NCBI GenBank assembly: GCA_026996295.1
Contig: JALWLL010000014.1
Location: forward strand, 1 to 64,000
Source of the DNA: Sulfurimonas sp.
Lineage (GTDB): Bacteria > Campylobacterota > Campylobacteria > Campylobacterales > Sulfurimonadaceae
Direction: 5' to 3'
DNA length: 64,000 nucleotides
Shown: in pieces, positions 38,628 to 52,719 of the stretch
Layout of the letters: the number at the start of each line of letters is the position of its first letter
Numbering within the stretch: the stretch's first letter is position 1
Program-made: the position numbers and the translations under genes
Notes under the pieces: model-generated
What the model was told of the DNA's origin: nothing
The model's input: only the letters and a program-made list of their open reading frames with translations
The model's database searches: none

Positions 38628-38641
38628 TTGATAAGTATCAA
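38628..38641. promoter_or_regulatory. FNR-type box before the sensor/regulator operon
   Basis: TTGATAAGTATCAA matches the full FNR consensus TTGAT-N4-ATCAA. Its centre (38634.5) is 32 bp before the centre of TACAAT at 38664-38669, the class II activator spacing (-41.5). The next gene starts at 38695. Confidence 0.8.
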
Positions 38642-38694: not shown

Positions 38695-39135
38695 ATGAAC
38701 TTAAAACATATCTTCTTCTTTGTAATGTTCACTCAGTTACTCATTGCAAATGATCCTATGAAACAAACTGGAGAATTTCCATTAAAAGAGATGCAAACAC
38801 AAAACCAAAAAATTGTAAAACTTGTTGTCGATGAACTCTCAAAAGATCTGCCCAAGGTCATAGATGCATACACAACATTCGTAGATATTCAAGCCAACGG
38901 TTCCACATTGGTTTATACATTTGAAATCAATACAGGCTCAAAAAGTGATGAAAGCGTACAAAAAGAGGATAAACAAAGGATGCAAGAAGCTGTTACACGA
39001 GGTGTTTGCAGATCTTCTAAAAGATTTTTAGACGCACAGATCAATATCTCCTATGTTTATATTAGTAAAAAGAGCAAAGCCAAACTCTTTGAATTTAACA
39101 TCACACAGCAAAAGTGTTTAGAGATAAAGAACTAG
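38695..39135 (+). CDS. Small periplasmic protein at head of nos-linked regulatory operon
   Basis: A 146-residue secreted protein: signal peptide MNLKHIFFFVMFTQLLIA, then a mixed alpha/beta domain with two Cys (RGVCRSSKRF and QQKCLEIKN) that may pair. I do not recognise the family. ACAGGATATAC precedes the ATG. It is preceded by a consensus FNR-type box and followed after 7 bases by a Crp/Fnr regulator and a membrane sensor, so it may be a periplasmic signal-binding partner for that sensor; this is inference from place only. Confidence 0.65.
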   Translation: MNLKHIFFFVMFTQLLIANDPMKQTGEFPLKEMQTQNQKIVKLVVDELSKDLPKVIDAYTTFVDIQANGSTLVYTFEINTGSKSDESVQKEDKQRMQEAVTRGVCRSSKRFLDAQINISYVYISKKSKAKLFEFNITQQKCLEIKN

Positions 39136-39142
39136 GTCTGTT

Positions 39143-39817
39143 TTGTCTATTCGAACTATTATCTCATCTTTGGATTTTTTCAAATCTCTCAATGATGAGC
39201 ATATAGAGATACTTGCAAAGATGGCAAATGTCACTGCCTACAAGCAAAATTATGTACTTCACTATGAACAACAACAGAGTAAAGCACTTCTCTTCTTAGT
39301 CAAAGGTTTGGCAAAAGCCTATAAAATAGATAAACATGATAATGAAATCTTTTTATATAATATCTATGAAAACTCCCTTTTATCAGAGATCTCAAGCATG
39401 CAAGATGAGTATTTACACTCATTTTCAAATATACAACTGATAGAGGATTCAAAAATCCTAAGCATTAATTATAGTGCCTTTAAAAAAGAGTTTTTAAGCA
39501 AACATCTATTGTGTAGTGAGTTTGCAAATGAGATCATAAATAGATCAATACAACTTCAATCGTTGGTAAATAGAGAGTTTATATTTGATTCTGTATCTAA
39601 AGTTGCTATGATGATCGATGAAGACATTGCTATGTTTAACAAGTTAAAGCGCCACGATATTTCACTCATTTTACATATTCAGCCTGCAACTCTTTCTCGA
39701 GTACTTAATCGACTCAAACGCAATAAAATAATTGACATAATTCATGGTAAAATTACGATTATTGACCATAGAGCACTTCGATCAGTTTATAAGGATGAAC
39801 ACGATGACTCATATTAA
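39143..39817 (+). CDS. Crp/Fnr-family transcription regulator, probable Nss-type regulator of nos genes
   Basis: A 224-residue regulator: N-terminal cyclic-nucleotide-like beta barrel (FFKSLNDEHIEILAKMA, FLVKGLAKAYKI), long dimer helix (about 115-150) and C-terminal helix-turn-helix (about 165-205) with recognition helix IQPATLSRVLNRL. It lacks the N-terminal Cys cluster of FNR, so it should not carry a 4Fe-4S cluster; a heme- or NO/N2O-responsive type such as the Nss regulators of Wolinella is more likely. FNR's recognition Glu is Ala here, while Ser-Arg are kept. Starts at TTG; overlaps the sensor gene by 14 bases. Confidence 0.8.
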   Translation: MSIRTIISSLDFFKSLNDEHIEILAKMANVTAYKQNYVLHYEQQQSKALLFLVKGLAKAYKIDKHDNEIFLYNIYENSLLSEISSMQDEYLHSFSNIQLIEDSKILSINYSAFKKEFLSKHLLCSEFANEIINRSIQLQSLVNREFIFDSVSKVAMMIDEDIAMFNKLKRHDISLILHIQPATLSRVLNRLKRNKIIDIIHGKITIIDHRALRSVYKDEHDDSY

Positions 39818-40772
39818 AATAGCCGGTATATTTATTTTTACCATCTCCCTTATACTTGTTGTTTTATCGAGTCATATCTCACATGAAACAAAAATATATA
39901 ACGAACTTATAGAAAGCATGAACCAAAAAAAAGCTTTTACACAGGATATCTCTAAAAATATTTTTTATCTCTATAGGAATAAAAACACTTCCAAAGTGTA
40001 TCTGGAACACTCTATTAAAAAATTTTTACAAGATATTCAAAAAAGTTCTAATCCTGAAAGTGAAACAATTTTAGACTATATACATGCAAACAACAAAAAC
40101 ATTACCAAACTCTGGAACAAATTTTATAAAGATGTACAAGAGTTTCGAGATGCTTCAGATGTAACTTCAAGCTATTCAAATATCCTTTTGGAAAAAACTG
40201 TTGCAGATATCTACAACACAAACCTTATGCTTATCATAGAGTTTGATAAGTTAACTAAAAAGTTAAAACAGGATTATTCTAACGCTTTAGAAATGTATAA
40301 GTTTCTACAATATGTTCTCTTTATTATCCTACTTTTGTTACTGATATACCTTTTTACCCAAGTGAAAACAATCATCGCTTTTGTGCATAAATTTTTAATT
40401 ATCTCAAAGAATATTATTACAAACTCAAGTATTAAAGAGCTCACACCCATTGAGCTAAAAAACAATGATTCTGAGATTACACAGGCTGTTGAAAACTTTA
40501 ACTATATTGTTAATAAAATAGATAACTCAATCGAATTTGCCCATAATTCTATTGAACACTCCTATAAATCACTTGAAATTGTTGAACAAAACATTGAGGA
40601 GCTTCTAGAGTTGCTAAATACCATGGAAGAAAATGATGCACTAGACAATGACCTTACAAAAAAAGAGGATGCTATTATACAATCTCTTGAGGAACTTACC
40701 AGCTCTGCACAACACCTCAAAGATTTAAAGAGTGATCTTCAAAAACTTATATCCTACAAAAATAACTTATAA
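39804..40772 (+). CDS. Two-TM sensor with PilJ/NarX-like periplasmic domain and no output domain
   Basis: About 322 residues starting MTHIKIAGIF (ATG with AAGGATGAACACG upstream; the track start 20 codons earlier lies in the regulator gene). Helix 1 is at about 6-24, a helical periplasmic domain at 25-165 of the NarX/PilJ_N four-helix kind, helix 2 at about 166-186, then a HAMP-like and coiled-coil cytoplasmic part to the end. There is no histidine kinase, GGDEF or chemotaxis signalling hairpin. Overlap with the Crp/Fnr gene means coupled translation, so the two proteins probably act together. Confidence 0.65.
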   Translation: MTHIKIAGIFIFTISLILVVLSSHISHETKIYNELIESMNQKKAFTQDISKNIFYLYRNKNTSKVYLEHSIKKFLQDIQKSSNPESETILDYIHANNKNITKLWNKFYKDVQEFRDASDVTSSYSNILLEKTVADIYNTNLMLIIEFDKLTKKLKQDYSNALEMYKFLQYVLFIILLLLLIYLFTQVKTIIAFVHKFLIISKNIITNSSIKELTPIELKNNDSEITQAVENFNYIVNKIDNSIEFAHNSIEHSYKSLEIVEQNIEELLELLNTMEENDALDNDLTKKEDAIIQSLEELTSSAQHLKDLKSDLQKLISYKNNL

Positions 40773-40801: not shown

Positions 40802-40815
40802 TTGACCTTAGTCAA
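40802..40815. promoter_or_regulatory. FNR-type box before nosZ
   Basis: TTGACCTTAGTCAA has perfectly palindromic arms (TTGAC and GTCAA). Its centre (40808.5) is 32 bp before the centre of TAAGAT at 40838-40843, matching the geometry of the other two boxes. The nosZ ATG is about 100 bases downstream. Confidence 0.8.
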
Positions 40816-40916: not shown

Positions 40917-43514
40917 ATGGACAAGCATTTTAGTAAGCTTTCTTCACTTATTTTAGGTACTGCACTTGCTACGACAGTTGTATCAGCGAGTGGTGGTGAA
41001 CTCCAAAAAGTAATGAAGGCAAGAGGTTTAACGGAAAACGACGTTATTCGTGCTGCAAAAACATACAACCCTACCGGTGGCAGGGATGAGTTTATTGTAT
41101 TTAGTTCTGGTGGACAGTCTGGACAAGTGATTGTTTATGGCGTACCATCAATGAGAATTTTAAAGTATATTGCCGTATTTACTCCTGAACCATGGCAGGG
41201 TTATGGTTATGATGTAGACAGTCTTAAGGTTTTAAGACAAGGTAATATCCGTGGACGTGAAATCAACTGGGGAGATACTCACCACCCGGCTATCTCTGAA
41301 ACAGACGCAAAATATGATGGAAAGTGGCTGGCCATAAACGACAAAGCAAATCCACGTATCGCCATTATTGACCTTCACGATTTTGAAACAAAACAGATCG
41401 TGGTCAATCCTGTTTTCAAATCGGCTCACGGTGGGGCTTTCTTTACTCAAAACAGTGATTATATCATAGAGGCTGCCCAATACGCTGCTCCGTTTGATAA
41501 TAACTATCACCCGATTGAAGAGTACAAAGAAACATATCGCGGTGGTGTTACCATGTGGAAATTCAACCACGACAAAGGGAGAATCATAGAAAAAGATTCT
41601 TTCACTATCGAGATGCCTCCATATATGCAGGATTTAAGTGATGCCGGTAAAAATGCTTCTGATGGCTGGGGATTTACCAACTCATTTAACACAGAGATGT
41701 ACACAGGTGGTATCGAAGTGGGTATGCCGCCAAATGAAGCCGGTATGTCAAGAAATGATACTGACTTCTTACACGTATATAACTGGAAAAAACTGGCAAA
41801 ACTGGCAAAAGATAAGAAAAACTACAAAAAAGTTAACGGTATGAAAATTATACCTATGAGTGTAGCAGTTGCCAACAACGCACTTTTCTTGATCCCGGAA
41901 CCTAAATCACCGCACGGTGTTGATGTGTCTCCTGATGGAGAGTATATTACTGTTTGTGGTAAGCTAGATACTCACGCTTCTGTATATAAATGGAGTAAAA
42001 TCAAAAAGCTTATTGACACTAAACAATACGCCGGAAAAGATCCTTACGGTATCCCTATTTTGGATATGAAAAAATCACTGCATGGTCAGGTTGAGCTTGG
42101 TCTTGGGCCATTACATAACCAGTATTCAAATGTAGATGGTGAGATCTATACATCGCTGTATGTTGATTCTCAGATCGTAAAATGGAACTATAAAAAACTC
42201 AAAGTTCTTGATAAAGAGAATGTGCACTACAATGTTGGACACCTTTGTGGTATGGAAGGTAAAACTGCCGATCCTCAAGGGAAATATATCATCTCTTTAA
42301 ATAAACTTGCTATTGACAGATTTGATCCGGTTGGTCCACTGCATCCACAAAATCACCAGTTGATCGATGTAAGCGGTAAAACTATGGACCTACTTGTTGA
42401 TATGCCGCTACCTTTAGGTGAACCTCACCAAGCTGTAGCGATCAGAGCTGAGAAACTACACCCGGCTGTTAGATATAAAATGGGTACAAACTCAAAAACA
42501 GGTAAGCAACACAAAGGTAAAACTTTAGCGGGTCAGGAAAAAATTGTAAGAAAAGGGAAAAATGTATATGTATATGCAACACTTGTTCGTTCACATATCA
42601 ATCCTGAACGTATTACAGTGAACAAAGGTGACAATGTAACTATTTACATGACCAACCTTGAACGTGCCCAAGATGAAACTCACGGTTTCACAGTTGATCA
42701 TTACGATGTGCACGCTTCACTTGAACCGGGTGAAACAGCAGAGATCAACTTCATAGCGGATATTGAAGGTGTATTTCCTTTCTACTGTACAGAGTTTTGT
42801 TCTGCACTTCACTTAGAGATGATGGGCTACATGATGGTAAAAGATCCTAACAAAAAATATGTTAGTGCTCAAAAACTCAAAATGAAAACAATGTCAAAAG
42901 CAGAGCTAGAAGCTGAATACAAAAAAACTGTAGCAGTCAATGATGCTACTGATGCTGTTATTCAAAGCGTTGTAAAATTCTTGAAAGAGAACCATTTTGA
43001 AAAACATAAAGTTGTTGCTGATCTTGTAACTGATGCTTTTGATCAATACAATCAAATTCCTGCACAGAAAAAGAAAGCTGATGAAGCATACAAACAAGGT
43101 GACTTGGAAAAAGCGATCTTATTTGAAAATATGATCTGGCAACTTATGGTAAAAACTGCCGATGTTGGTATTCGTGCAAAAGATGCACTTGTTCGTATCA
43201 TCGCTACAAAACAATCTTCTGCTGCACAAGCCGGTGAGAGAGCATTTGGAGAAGGTGGTTGTTCAGGATGTCATGTTATTGGTAAAGTATCATCCGGTCC
43301 AGACTTAACAGGTGTACTTCAAAGACATGAAAATGGTGAACAATGGGTGAAAAACTTTATTATGCATCCGGAAAAAATGTACGATGATACTTATGTAAAA
43401 AGCATGATTGATTATTTTAATCTCAAAATGCCTAATCAACATATGAGTGAAAAGGAAACTGAAAACATTATCGAATATCTAAAATGGATTGACGAGAATG
43501 CAAATTTATTCTAA
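40917..43514 (+). CDS. nosZ: Nitrous oxide reductase, clade II (Sec-exported, cytochrome c fused)
   Basis: Periplasmic copper enzyme that reduces N2O to N2. The signal peptide is Sec-type (SSLILGTALATTVVSASGG), with no twin Arg. The beta-propeller has CuZ His ligands in GDTHHPA (about residue 120), KSAHGGAFF and SPHGVDVSPDG. The cupredoxin domain holds the CuA site CTEFCSALHLEM (about 623). A C-terminal monoheme cytochrome c domain has CSGCH (about 781) and a late Met. Its 865 residues fit the epsilonproteobacterial cNosZ. CTAAGGAGAAAAAG is a strong ribosome site. It appears to be its own transcription unit. Confidence 0.98.
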   Translation: MDKHFSKLSSLILGTALATTVVSASGGELQKVMKARGLTENDVIRAAKTYNPTGGRDEFIVFSSGGQSGQVIVYGVPSMRILKYIAVFTPEPWQGYGYDVDSLKVLRQGNIRGREINWGDTHHPAISETDAKYDGKWLAINDKANPRIAIIDLHDFETKQIVVNPVFKSAHGGAFFTQNSDYIIEAAQYAAPFDNNYHPIEEYKETYRGGVTMWKFNHDKGRIIEKDSFTIEMPPYMQDLSDAGKNASDGWGFTNSFNTEMYTGGIEVGMPPNEAGMSRNDTDFLHVYNWKKLAKLAKDKKNYKKVNGMKIIPMSVAVANNALFLIPEPKSPHGVDVSPDGEYITVCGKLDTHASVYKWSKIKKLIDTKQYAGKDPYGIPILDMKKSLHGQVELGLGPLHNQYSNVDGEIYTSLYVDSQIVKWNYKKLKVLDKENVHYNVGHLCGMEGKTADPQGKYIISLNKLAIDRFDPVGPLHPQNHQLIDVSGKTMDLLVDMPLPLGEPHQAVAIRAEKLHPAVRYKMGTNSKTGKQHKGKTLAGQEKIVRKGKNVYVYATLVRSHINPERITVNKGDNVTIYMTNLERAQDETHGFTVDHYDVHASLEPGETAEINFIADIEGVFPFYCTEFCSALHLEMMGYMMVKDPNKKYVSAQKLKMKTMSKAELEAEYKKTVAVNDATDAVIQSVVKFLKENHFEKHKVVADLVTDAFDQYNQIPAQKKKADEAYKQGDLEKAILFENMIWQLMVKTADVGIRAKDALVRIIATKQSSAAQAGERAFGEGGCSGCHVIGKVSSGPDLTGVLQRHENGEQWVKNFIMHPEKMYDDTYVKSMIDYFNLKMPNQHMSEKETENIIEYLKWIDENANLF

Positions 43515-43595: not shown

Positions 43596-43609
43596 TTGAC
43601 ATAAATCAA
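43596..43609. promoter_or_regulatory. FNR-type box before nosB
   Basis: TTGACATAAATCAA differs by one base from TTGAT-N4-ATCAA. Its centre (43602.5) is 32 bp before the centre of TATAAT at 43632-43637. Confidence 0.8.
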
Positions 43610-50486: not shown

Positions 50487-50957
50487 ATGAAAAAAATAAT
50501 CTTAGCAATGGTTCTGCTCTCAAGCTTGCTCTTTGGTGAAAGTTTACACTTTGACAACAATACGACATGTCTCGTTAGACATCTCAAGGTGTACAAAAAC
50601 CCTCAATGGGTAGCAAAAATAGAGCTTGCCAATGGGAAAGAGCTCTTTTTTTCGAGTCCAAAATCTATGTTTGAATTTTACCATAGACCCGGACGATGGT
50701 ATGATTTGGGTGTCAGAAGTGAAGAGGACTTTAAAGATATTCTTGTTACTGATTTTGACACACTCCAACCCGTGAAAGCAAAAGGAGCATTTTATGTCTA
50801 TGGAAGCAATATCACATCACCCGCCGGTGATGATCTGGTAGCTTTTGACTCCTATAAAAAGGCGCAAGAGTTTGCAAAACAACATAACGGCAAAAGAGTA
50901 CTTGGTTTTAAAGAAGTTAACTATGCACTTATAAACCTACTCAATGGAAGGATTTAA
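50487..50957 (+). CDS. nosL: NosL-family protein (copy 2), non-lipoprotein form without CxxCxM
   Basis: A 156-residue periplasmic protein with a cleavable signal (MKKIILAMVLLSSLLFGES). The NosL fold is seen in KELFFSSPKSMFEFY, VTDFDTLQPVKAKGAFYVYGS, AFDSYKKAQEFAKQHNGKRVLGF. The copper motif is reduced to a single Cys (NTTCLVRH), with His and Met residues nearby, so copper handling may differ from the other copies. GGAGAAAATATG is a good ribosome site. Confidence 0.85.
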   Translation: MKKIILAMVLLSSLLFGESLHFDNNTTCLVRHLKVYKNPQWVAKIELANGKELFFSSPKSMFEFYHRPGRWYDLGVRSEEDFKDILVTDFDTLQPVKAKGAFYVYGSNITSPAGDDLVAFDSYKKAQEFAKQHNGKRVLGFKEVNYALINLLNGRI

Positions 50958-50958
50958 C

Positions 50959-51483
50959 ATGGCAAAACCAACACCCATAGATGAAGAGATCGTACTTGAT
51001 CCTAAAAGATACATAGTAAGTGAAACAGATGAAACAGGAAAAATCACCTACTGTAATGATTATTTCATAGAAGTATGTGGCTACTCAAAAGAGGAACTCA
51101 TCGGTAAACCACACAGCATTATCCGTCATCCTGATATGCCAAAAGTAGTTTTTAAACTTTTGTGGCAGACTATATCTTCTGGAAAAAATATCAACGCAGT
51201 TGTCAAAAACCTGGCAAAAGATGGAAGATACTACTGGATCTTTACAGAATTTGAGATACGTAAAGATACCGATACAGGTAAGATCATAGGCTACCATGCT
51301 TCTAGAAAAAAGATATCAAAGCATGTTATAGAAGTGATTGCCGATCTTTATAAGGAACTTCTCAAGATAGAACAACGTGATGGCGTCGAAGCGAGTGAAA
51401 AATACCTGATACAATTCCTCAAAGACAAAGATGATGAGATAGAGTTTGCCGATATCATGGAAGAGATTCATAAATTTTACTAG
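50959..51483 (+). CDS. CetB/Aer-like PAS-domain protein in the nos operon
   Basis: A soluble protein of about 174 residues. The N-terminal PAS domain has YIVSETDETGKITYCNDYFIEVCGYSKEELIG, then IIRHPDMPKVVFKLLWQTI and KNLAKDGRYYWIFTE, the pattern of FAD-binding redox PAS domains in Aer and in Campylobacter CetB. A short helical C-terminus follows. CetB partners a membrane chemotaxis protein in energy taxis; no such partner is here. GGAAGGATTTAAC fixes the ATG one base after the nosL stop, so it belongs to the nos operon. Confidence 0.8.
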   Translation: MAKPTPIDEEIVLDPKRYIVSETDETGKITYCNDYFIEVCGYSKEELIGKPHSIIRHPDMPKVVFKLLWQTISSGKNINAVVKNLAKDGRYYWIFTEFEIRKDTDTGKIIGYHASRKKISKHVIEVIADLYKELLKIEQRDGVEASEKYLIQFLKDKDDEIEFADIMEEIHKFY

Positions 51484-51504
51484 ATATCCAAGCAAAGAGA
51501 TCCG

Positions 51505-52719
51505 ATGAAAATAACCTTCTTTCTCCTTTTTCTTCTCTCTTTGGCTTATGCGAATCCACTTCAAAATGCCATTGACAATGCGCCACCCTACTCCACATTA
51601 AAACTCTCACCGGGAGTTTACAGCGGTGGTGTTGTTATAGATAAACCACTTACACTTGAGGGAAAAGCTGATGGTGTCATCATCGATGCCAAAAATATGG
51701 GAAGTGTTATCACTGTACTCTCATCTGATGTGCATATCAAAAAACTCACCATCCAAAACAGTGGTGCCAAAATGCATACCATAGATGCTGCCATCTCCAT
51801 GAAAAATGTACGACACTGCAGTGTAGAAGAGTCTAGATTACTTAACTCCCTCTATGGTATAGATATGGCGATGGTAAGTGACTCCAACATCACCGGCAAC
51901 TACATCACTTCTAAAAAGTTTGATCTGCCTCTTCGTGGAGATGCTCTTAAAATGTACTATGCACACAACAATATTATTGCCAACAACACCATTGAAAACT
52001 CCCGAGATGTTACTCTAAACTACTCACACCATAATCTCTTTGAGAAAAACAGATTTTTGCATAACAGATTTGCAACACATCTGAGCCTGAGTAACGGCAA
52101 TAGATTTCAAAATAATCATTACTTATACAACTCTGTCTCCATTATGATTATGGGTGCAAAAAATACCCAAATCCTGCACAATCAGATACTAAGCTCCAAC
52201 GGAGCAGCCGGGATAGGTTTACTTCTCAAAGGAGTAGCGCGATGTGTATGCGAACATAACAAGATCAGTTTCAATGCCAAAGCCATCTATATTGACGGAC
52301 AAGAAAAAGCAAAAGGGATGAAGCGCTATATCAACTATAATGATATCTCTTACAACAAAGAAGCTCTCCATTTTCATGCAAGTATCAAGGACAATACTAT
52401 TACACACAACAGATTTTTTGCAAATATTGACGATATCGTCAAAGATATAGGTGGAGGTTTCTCTTCAAACAATAAAGTCGAGTACAATTTTTGGGATAGA
52501 TACGTTGGATTTGACAGAGACAATGACAATATAGGGGACACGCCCCATAAGGTGTACCAATACGCAGATCAATTATGGCACTATAACAACAAGATAAAGT
52601 TTTTTTATGCTTCCCCTACCCTGACATTGTTAAATTTTTTATCAAACTTGGCTCCTTTTATTGAGCCAAATCTTCTTATGCAGGATTCAAAACCTGTTTT
52701 TATTTACTCGGATGAGTAA
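51505..52719 (+). CDS. nosD2: NosD (copy 2)
   Basis: A second NosD of 404 residues: signal peptide (MKITFFLLFLLSLAYA), N-terminal 'LQNAIDNAPPYSTLKLSPGVYSGG', beta-helix repeats (NCV-like turns such as NNTIENSRD, HNQILSSN) and the same ending GDTPHKVYQYADQLW. It differs from copy 1 along most of its length, so the duplication is old or one copy came from elsewhere. Gene symbol is a label of mine. Its 3' end overlaps the convergent NosL-like gene by 20 bases. Confidence 0.9.
   Translation: MKITFFLLFLLSLAYANPLQNAIDNAPPYSTLKLSPGVYSGGVVIDKPLTLEGKADGVIIDAKNMGSVITVLSSDVHIKKLTIQNSGAKMHTIDAAISMKNVRHCSVEESRLLNSLYGIDMAMVSDSNITGNYITSKKFDLPLRGDALKMYYAHNNIIANNTIENSRDVTLNYSHHNLFEKNRFLHNRFATHLSLSNGNRFQNNHYLYNSVSIMIMGAKNTQILHNQILSSNGAAGIGLLLKGVARCVCEHNKISFNAKAIYIDGQEKAKGMKRYINYNDISYNKEALHFHASIKDNTITHNRFFANIDDIVKDIGGGFSSNNKVEYNFWDRYVGFDRDNDNIGDTPHKVYQYADQLWHYNNKIKFFYASPTLTLLNFLSNLAPFIEPNLLMQDSKPVFIYSDE

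Follow-up and report, generated by a model that had tools for sequence, protein, structure and literature searches.

The operon that precedes the nitrous oxide reductase gene nosZ in this stretch of Sulfurimonas DNA is read here, with moderate confidence, as encoding a NarX-like sensor devoid of a kinase that controls its own Crp/Fnr partner, the nos form of this sensor reading a signal other than nitrate and a small periplasmic protein, hereafter called PERI, being an accessory. The features on which this reading is built are listed below; the window denotes the whole stretch of DNA that was analysed, 64,000 nucleotides in length.

38628 to 38641, no strand assigned: Crp/Fnr-type box TTGATAAGTATCAA, an exact TTGA-N6-TCAA, 67 bases 5' of the PERI start
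38695 to 39135, plus strand: PERI, a secreted periplasmic protein of 146 aa with a signal-peptide-like N-terminus, accessory member of the operon
39143 to 39817, plus strand: Crp/Fnr-family regulator, Nss/DNR-like, with a TTG start, recognised by Pfam and without FNR cysteines
39804 to 40772, plus strand: two-TM sensor with a predicted NarX/PilJ-like four-helix periplasmic domain, TM2, and a HAMP-like and coiled-coil cytoplasmic part
39921 to 39932, plus strand: altered P-box in the sensor, residues 40–43 being N-Q-K-K in place of G-K-Q-R
40802 to 40815, no strand assigned: box TTGACCTTAGTCAA, exact, 115 bases 5' of nosZ
40917 to 43514, plus strand: nosZ, clade II, Sec-dependent nitrous oxide reductase (TIGR04246, 872.6 bits), presumed target
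43596 to 43609, no strand assigned: box TTGACATAAATCAA, exact, 107 bases 5' of nosB and the accessory nos genes, presumed target

A sequence-only reading of the window had described three open reading frames separated by a 7-base gap and a 14-base overlap, placed behind a nos-type box and upstream of nosZ. All of this was found: the three frames lie where they had been placed, with the gap and the overlap as described, the exact TTGA-N6-TCAA begins at 38628, and the nosZ downstream of the operon is of clade II. The frame of the sensor is open from 39744, which would give a protein of 342 aa; the ATG at 39804, giving 322 aa, is the preferred start and is supported by comparison with relatives. 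Downstream of nosZ come, in order, nosB, nosD, nosG, nosC1, nosC2, nosH, nosF, a nosL-like gene and nosY, the names being assigned after the known Wolinella gene order (PMC8139620). The region beyond nosY (50487–52719) encodes a NosL-domain protein, a PAS-domain protein and a second NosD-like protein. The closest named relatives of the module are found in Sulfurimonas MAGs; among isolates, S. indica (L130) is one that has it.

The association of the regulator with the sensor was assessed across genomes. A sequence-alignment scan of genome contigs for the sensor yielded 80 named loci. In every one of the 80 sensors whose upstream flank is covered (the window and 79 named loci), a Crp gene lies directly 5' of the sensor gene, and the match between the types of the two partners is complete, with 48 nos–nos and 32 nap–nap pairs (80/80). 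Among the matches listed for 200 Campylobacterales genomes, a sensor gene comes next, mostly at most 30 bases away, after 62 of the 64 Crp homologues that reach 210 bits, as against 3 of the 22 more distant, Nss-type homologues at 160–180 bits. This difference indicates that the regulators coupled to a sensor form one branch of a wider Nss-like group. Close Crp homologues beside which no sensor was detected lie by napA in two genomes (G034 and G187). The sensor and Crp trees each split the nos types from the nap types with a support of 1.0, and in 32 nos loci the distances of the two proteins correlate after removal of the NosZ distance (partial r 0.66, permutation p 0.0005), a correlation that does not imply contact since neighbouring genes share their history. 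An apparent natural fusion of the two genes (G090, open frame 681) was ruled out, because an in-frame TGA separates them.

The same Crp–sensor pair precedes napA in many Campylobacterales, and it is mainly before napA that the module is found; the nos pair is a diverged relative of the nap pair. The genome under study itself carries a second Crp–sensor pair, with a canonical PilJ pocket, directly 5' of a napA-GH cluster (G000 contig 31, L034:7834-9512). A survey of gene co-occurrence, set beforehand as a refutation test of the three-gene proposal, found PERI, Crp and sensor together in 40 of 46 informative nos-type loci, with nosZ following the nos-type module in 41 of 45. The proposed three-gene nos module is therefore conserved and tied to nosZ, but its core consists of two genes, PERI being missing from six nos modules; similarly, the suggestion of an N2O-linked system is borne out by the tie to nosZ, but not as something unique to N2O, since the same pair also stands before napA. 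Nos-type pairs without a following nosZ occur at four loci (L126, L136, L138 and L142); in G063, the genome corresponding to L136, nosZ is on another contig. In other taxa, two loci (L162 and L181) have a nap-type pair in front of nosZ, the L181 sensor being split into two frames, which suggests that the pair was attached to nos as a unit more than once.

The regulator scores over the Pfam cut-offs for cNMP_binding (PF00027, 28.7 bits) and HTH_Crp_2 (PF13545, 35.5 bits), and its alignment contains no conserved N-terminal cysteine set of the FNR iron-sulphur type, as expected if it is, as had been claimed, a Crp/Fnr protein without FNR cysteines. The E-x-x-S-R recognition helix is absent from the window protein, which has A-T-L-S-R instead, and the first residue of this helix is mixed (A, E or S) among nos-type regulators; a difference in boxes between A- and E-type helices was looked for, and no clear link emerged. 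A Nitrosophilus study took TTGA-N6-TCAA as its Crp/Fnr consensus (PMC11539149). Exact copies in the 64-kb window comprise three intergenic boxes, before PERI, nosZ and nosB, and three intragenic ones, while chance alone predicts about four in total; the signal lies in the position of the boxes rather than in their number. Across the related loci an exact box is present 5' of nosZ in 40 of 45 cases, of nosB in 15 of 33, of napA in 12 of 19 and of PERI in 10 of 39, against a background of 16 of 523 other genes. The presence of predicted boxes before its own operon and before the target genes is a trait that the regulator would share with those of the Nss/DNR type.

The likeness to the Nss regulators (NssA, NssB and NssC of Wolinella succinogenes, NssR of Campylobacter jejuni) goes further: these are Crp/Fnr-family proteins without FNR cysteines, from the same phylum, with the same TTGA-N6-TCAA boxes and the same link to nap and nos. 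However, no membrane sensor is mentioned for them in PMC6682613, PMC8139620 or PMC11539149, whereas the window regulator has a dedicated one. In the Campylobacterota, FNR or NarP orthologues are reported absent in a review (PMC6682613). The Nss regulators of Wolinella respond to nitrate, NO and N2O (PMC6682613), and how they sense these compounds is a question for which a review calls for further study (PMC8139620). Since Nss-type regulators exist without a sensor gene and those of Wolinella respond to these compounds, the Crp protein could sense by itself. According to this hypothesis, the regulator is the N-oxide sensor, as is thought for the haem- or NO-sensing DNR and Nss proteins, while the role of the membrane protein is confined to tethering or dampening it. 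The response of NssB and NssC to NO and N2O (PMC6682613) is consistent with such a role, and so is the profile comparison, in which DNR (3dkw) is the closest solved structure for the regulator. Yet the paired regulators have no invariant Cys or His for a metal or haem site: their single mostly conserved His is in the DNA-binding part, and two Cys are confined to the nap types. Together with the near-obligate pairing with a sensor gene, this makes sensing by the Crp protein itself rather unlikely. The two cysteines (window residues 93 and 140) are both present in 28 of 29 nap-type partners as against 0 of 47 nos-type ones; the nos branch may have lost a thiol or metal site there.

A second alternative assigns a signalling role to PERI, which would bind the ligand or NosZ and relay the signal to the sensor in a three-part system. 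PERI has no Pfam match, but its AlphaFold model (pLDDT 88.7) is matched in Foldseek by 3npd, 6i2v and 4ftf (TM normalised to the target 0.83, 0.83 and 0.76), that is, by PA3611 (QSregVF) and the type II secretion pilotins AspS/EpsS. Pilotins bind a helix of their secretin, so that the fold itself is compatible with a relay. PERI also opens 40 of 46 nos-type modules, and its evolutionary distances follow the sensor's after NosZ is accounted for, with a partial r of 0.59, similar to the Crp–sensor value. Standalone homologues occur in other families (L090-L109), nearly confined to nosZ genomes (21 of 23; Fisher p 2e-8, kinship ignored). Several observations nevertheless argue against this alternative. 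PERI is absent from six nos modules (L114, L118, L121, L133, L148 and L150) and from the nap modules examined; its co-occurrence with nosZ is confounded by kinship; and the standalone genes mostly lack a box, which means that PERI is not tied to the box regulon. Both an obligate third part and membership of the same box regulon everywhere were rejected on these grounds, and the distribution of the standalone genes hints at a link with N2O reduction rather than at a fixed part of the sensor. A three-part relay is hence improbable, about as much so as sensing by the regulator alone. PERI, which is conserved in the genus, has two conserved cysteines (C105 and C141); it differs from PA3611 and AspS/EpsS, with which it shares a fold by comparison of the predicted structure, in having no lipobox Cys in its signal region, no significant sequence match to them and no type II secretion context. 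It is an accessory periplasmic protein, pilotin-like in fold, which may act on NosZ or modulate the sensor.

The sensor had been described as PilJ/NarX-like. Pfam PilJ does not match the window protein itself, but it strongly recognises the nap-linked relatives, which carry INIAGKQRMLTQ (G-x-x-R); the resemblance is therefore correct by homology. The protein has two membrane helices, and its AlphaFold model (pLDDT 81) is all helix, in the order TM1-H1, H2, H3, H4-TM2, followed by a cytoplasmic HAMP-like and coiled-coil part, the cytoplasmic portion spanning about residues 190–322. Foldseek aligns this model with NarQ sensor-TM-HAMP fragments over about 244 columns (TM normalised to the target 0.57–0.62, weak E-values); NarQ is the best informative structural match, 5jef giving a probability of 0.99 and a TM of 0.62 (target) with an E-value of 0.33, which is not significant. 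The family profile matches PilJ 7zjr and the chemotaxis transducer 6gcv. With NarX and NarQ of E. coli the sensor would share, on the predicted structure, a periplasmic four-helix domain between two TM helices and a HAMP-like region, but those proteins have kinase domains and a response regulator, and the sensor module has neither. Indeed, as the sequence-only reading had it, no kinase, MCP or other output domain scores over the cut-off in the window sensor; none is shared by the 70 sensors compared, and no kinase domain is among the families listed for them. CheZ was rejected as an output domain, the matches being weak and restricted to 2 of these 70 members. Longer sensors (about 440–470 aa) that lie beside a Crp gene of the same type carry two PilJ copies (L068:6994-8349, similar in L062-L065), and both copies of L068 have the G-x-x-R motif.

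NarX/NarQ-type kinases and nitrate chemoreceptors bind nitrate through the motif G-x-x-R (PMC8199190). Replacement of the R of this motif by K makes NarX and NarQ nitrate-insensitive, and NarQ R50K yielded a ligand-free structure (PMC7247690). All 28 nap-type rows of the alignment have G at residue 40 and R at residue 43. By contrast, nos-type sensors have N at residue 40 (40 of 42) and K at residue 43 (41 of 42); the window sensor has N-Q-K-K in lieu of the motif, and N-x-x-K is found in nearly all nos types, a further departure from NarX and NarQ. Since both nitrate-contacting residues are changed (G to N, R to K), the nos sensor is unlikely to bind nitrate in the NarX fashion, and nitrate is an unlikely signal for it. 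One possibility is that the pocket, once changed, has become vestigial, with the nos sensor locked so that the regulator is kept in one fixed state, much as the R to K change locks NarX in the phosphatase state (PMC7247690). However, few parts of the nos sensor are as well conserved as the changed helix, in which residues 46–55 are nearly invariant among nos types: this helix is not decayed but strongly conserved, and a vestigial pocket appears quite doubtful. The nos/nap differences in the pocket and in the Crp cysteines count as one event, since they follow a single split in the tree. Finally, it is very improbable that the sensor serves taxis or some other pathway and merely shares an operon with the Crp gene: PilJ domains are known in chemoreceptors (McpN, PilJ) and a few sensor members give weak CheZ and MCP matches, but the window-type sensor has only the PilJ sensor domain in common with McpN and the PilJ-domain chemoreceptors of Pseudomonas, the MCP signalling domain never exceeds the cut-off, and the same pairing is kept before both napA and nosZ across several families.

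The preferred reading, control of a Crp/Fnr protein by its own kinase-less sensor, can be spelled out as follows. The two proteins would constitute a two-protein signalling module, in which the NarX-like membrane sensor has lost its kinase or never had one. The sensor would exert this control through its cytoplasmic HAMP-like coiled coil, which most likely contacts the regulator directly at the membrane, with no phosphotransfer, and the regulator would then act on the TTGA-N6-TCAA boxes that stand in front of nosZ, nosB and the operon encoding it. What the data show is the gene pairing, the pocket change, the boxes, the lack of a known output domain and the fold of PERI; direct contact, the ligand, the direction of regulation and the role of PERI are inferred, contact from the fact that the two genes almost always occur as a pair, that the sensor has no output domain and that no ligand site is obvious in the regulator. 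The nos and nap modules would be two related branches of one family, the nap branch with a canonical nitrate-type PilJ pocket and the nos branch probably reading another periplasmic signal of N2O respiration, be it N2O, another N-oxide or a protein state. The nos sensor has thus probably been re-tuned away from nitrate, acting on its Crp partner by contact, and N2O is a possible ligand. A more specific proposal, that of a phosphorylation-free architecture in which a NarX-like sensor acts directly on a Crp/Fnr protein, the nap form for nitrate and the nos form for N2O or the N2O-reducing state, is put forward tentatively.

No system of such make-up was known to the author of the sequence-only reading, and no description of the Crp–sensor pair was found in the open-access literature searched, to which the primary paper on the Wolinella Nss regulators (Kern and Simon 2016) does not belong. 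The Nss regulators are described in that literature without a sensor partner, and an earlier mention in Kern and Simon 2016 is possible. The parts are of known kinds; their combination appears to be new. The module provides a concrete candidate for N-oxide sensing in the Campylobacterota, with a nap form for nitrate and a nos form for a different signal, and the equivalents of G40 and R43 are named as the key residues of the pocket. If the nos form does respond to N2O, it would be a candidate for a dedicated N2O sensor in clade II N2O reducers, organisms that matter for the removal of a greenhouse gas.
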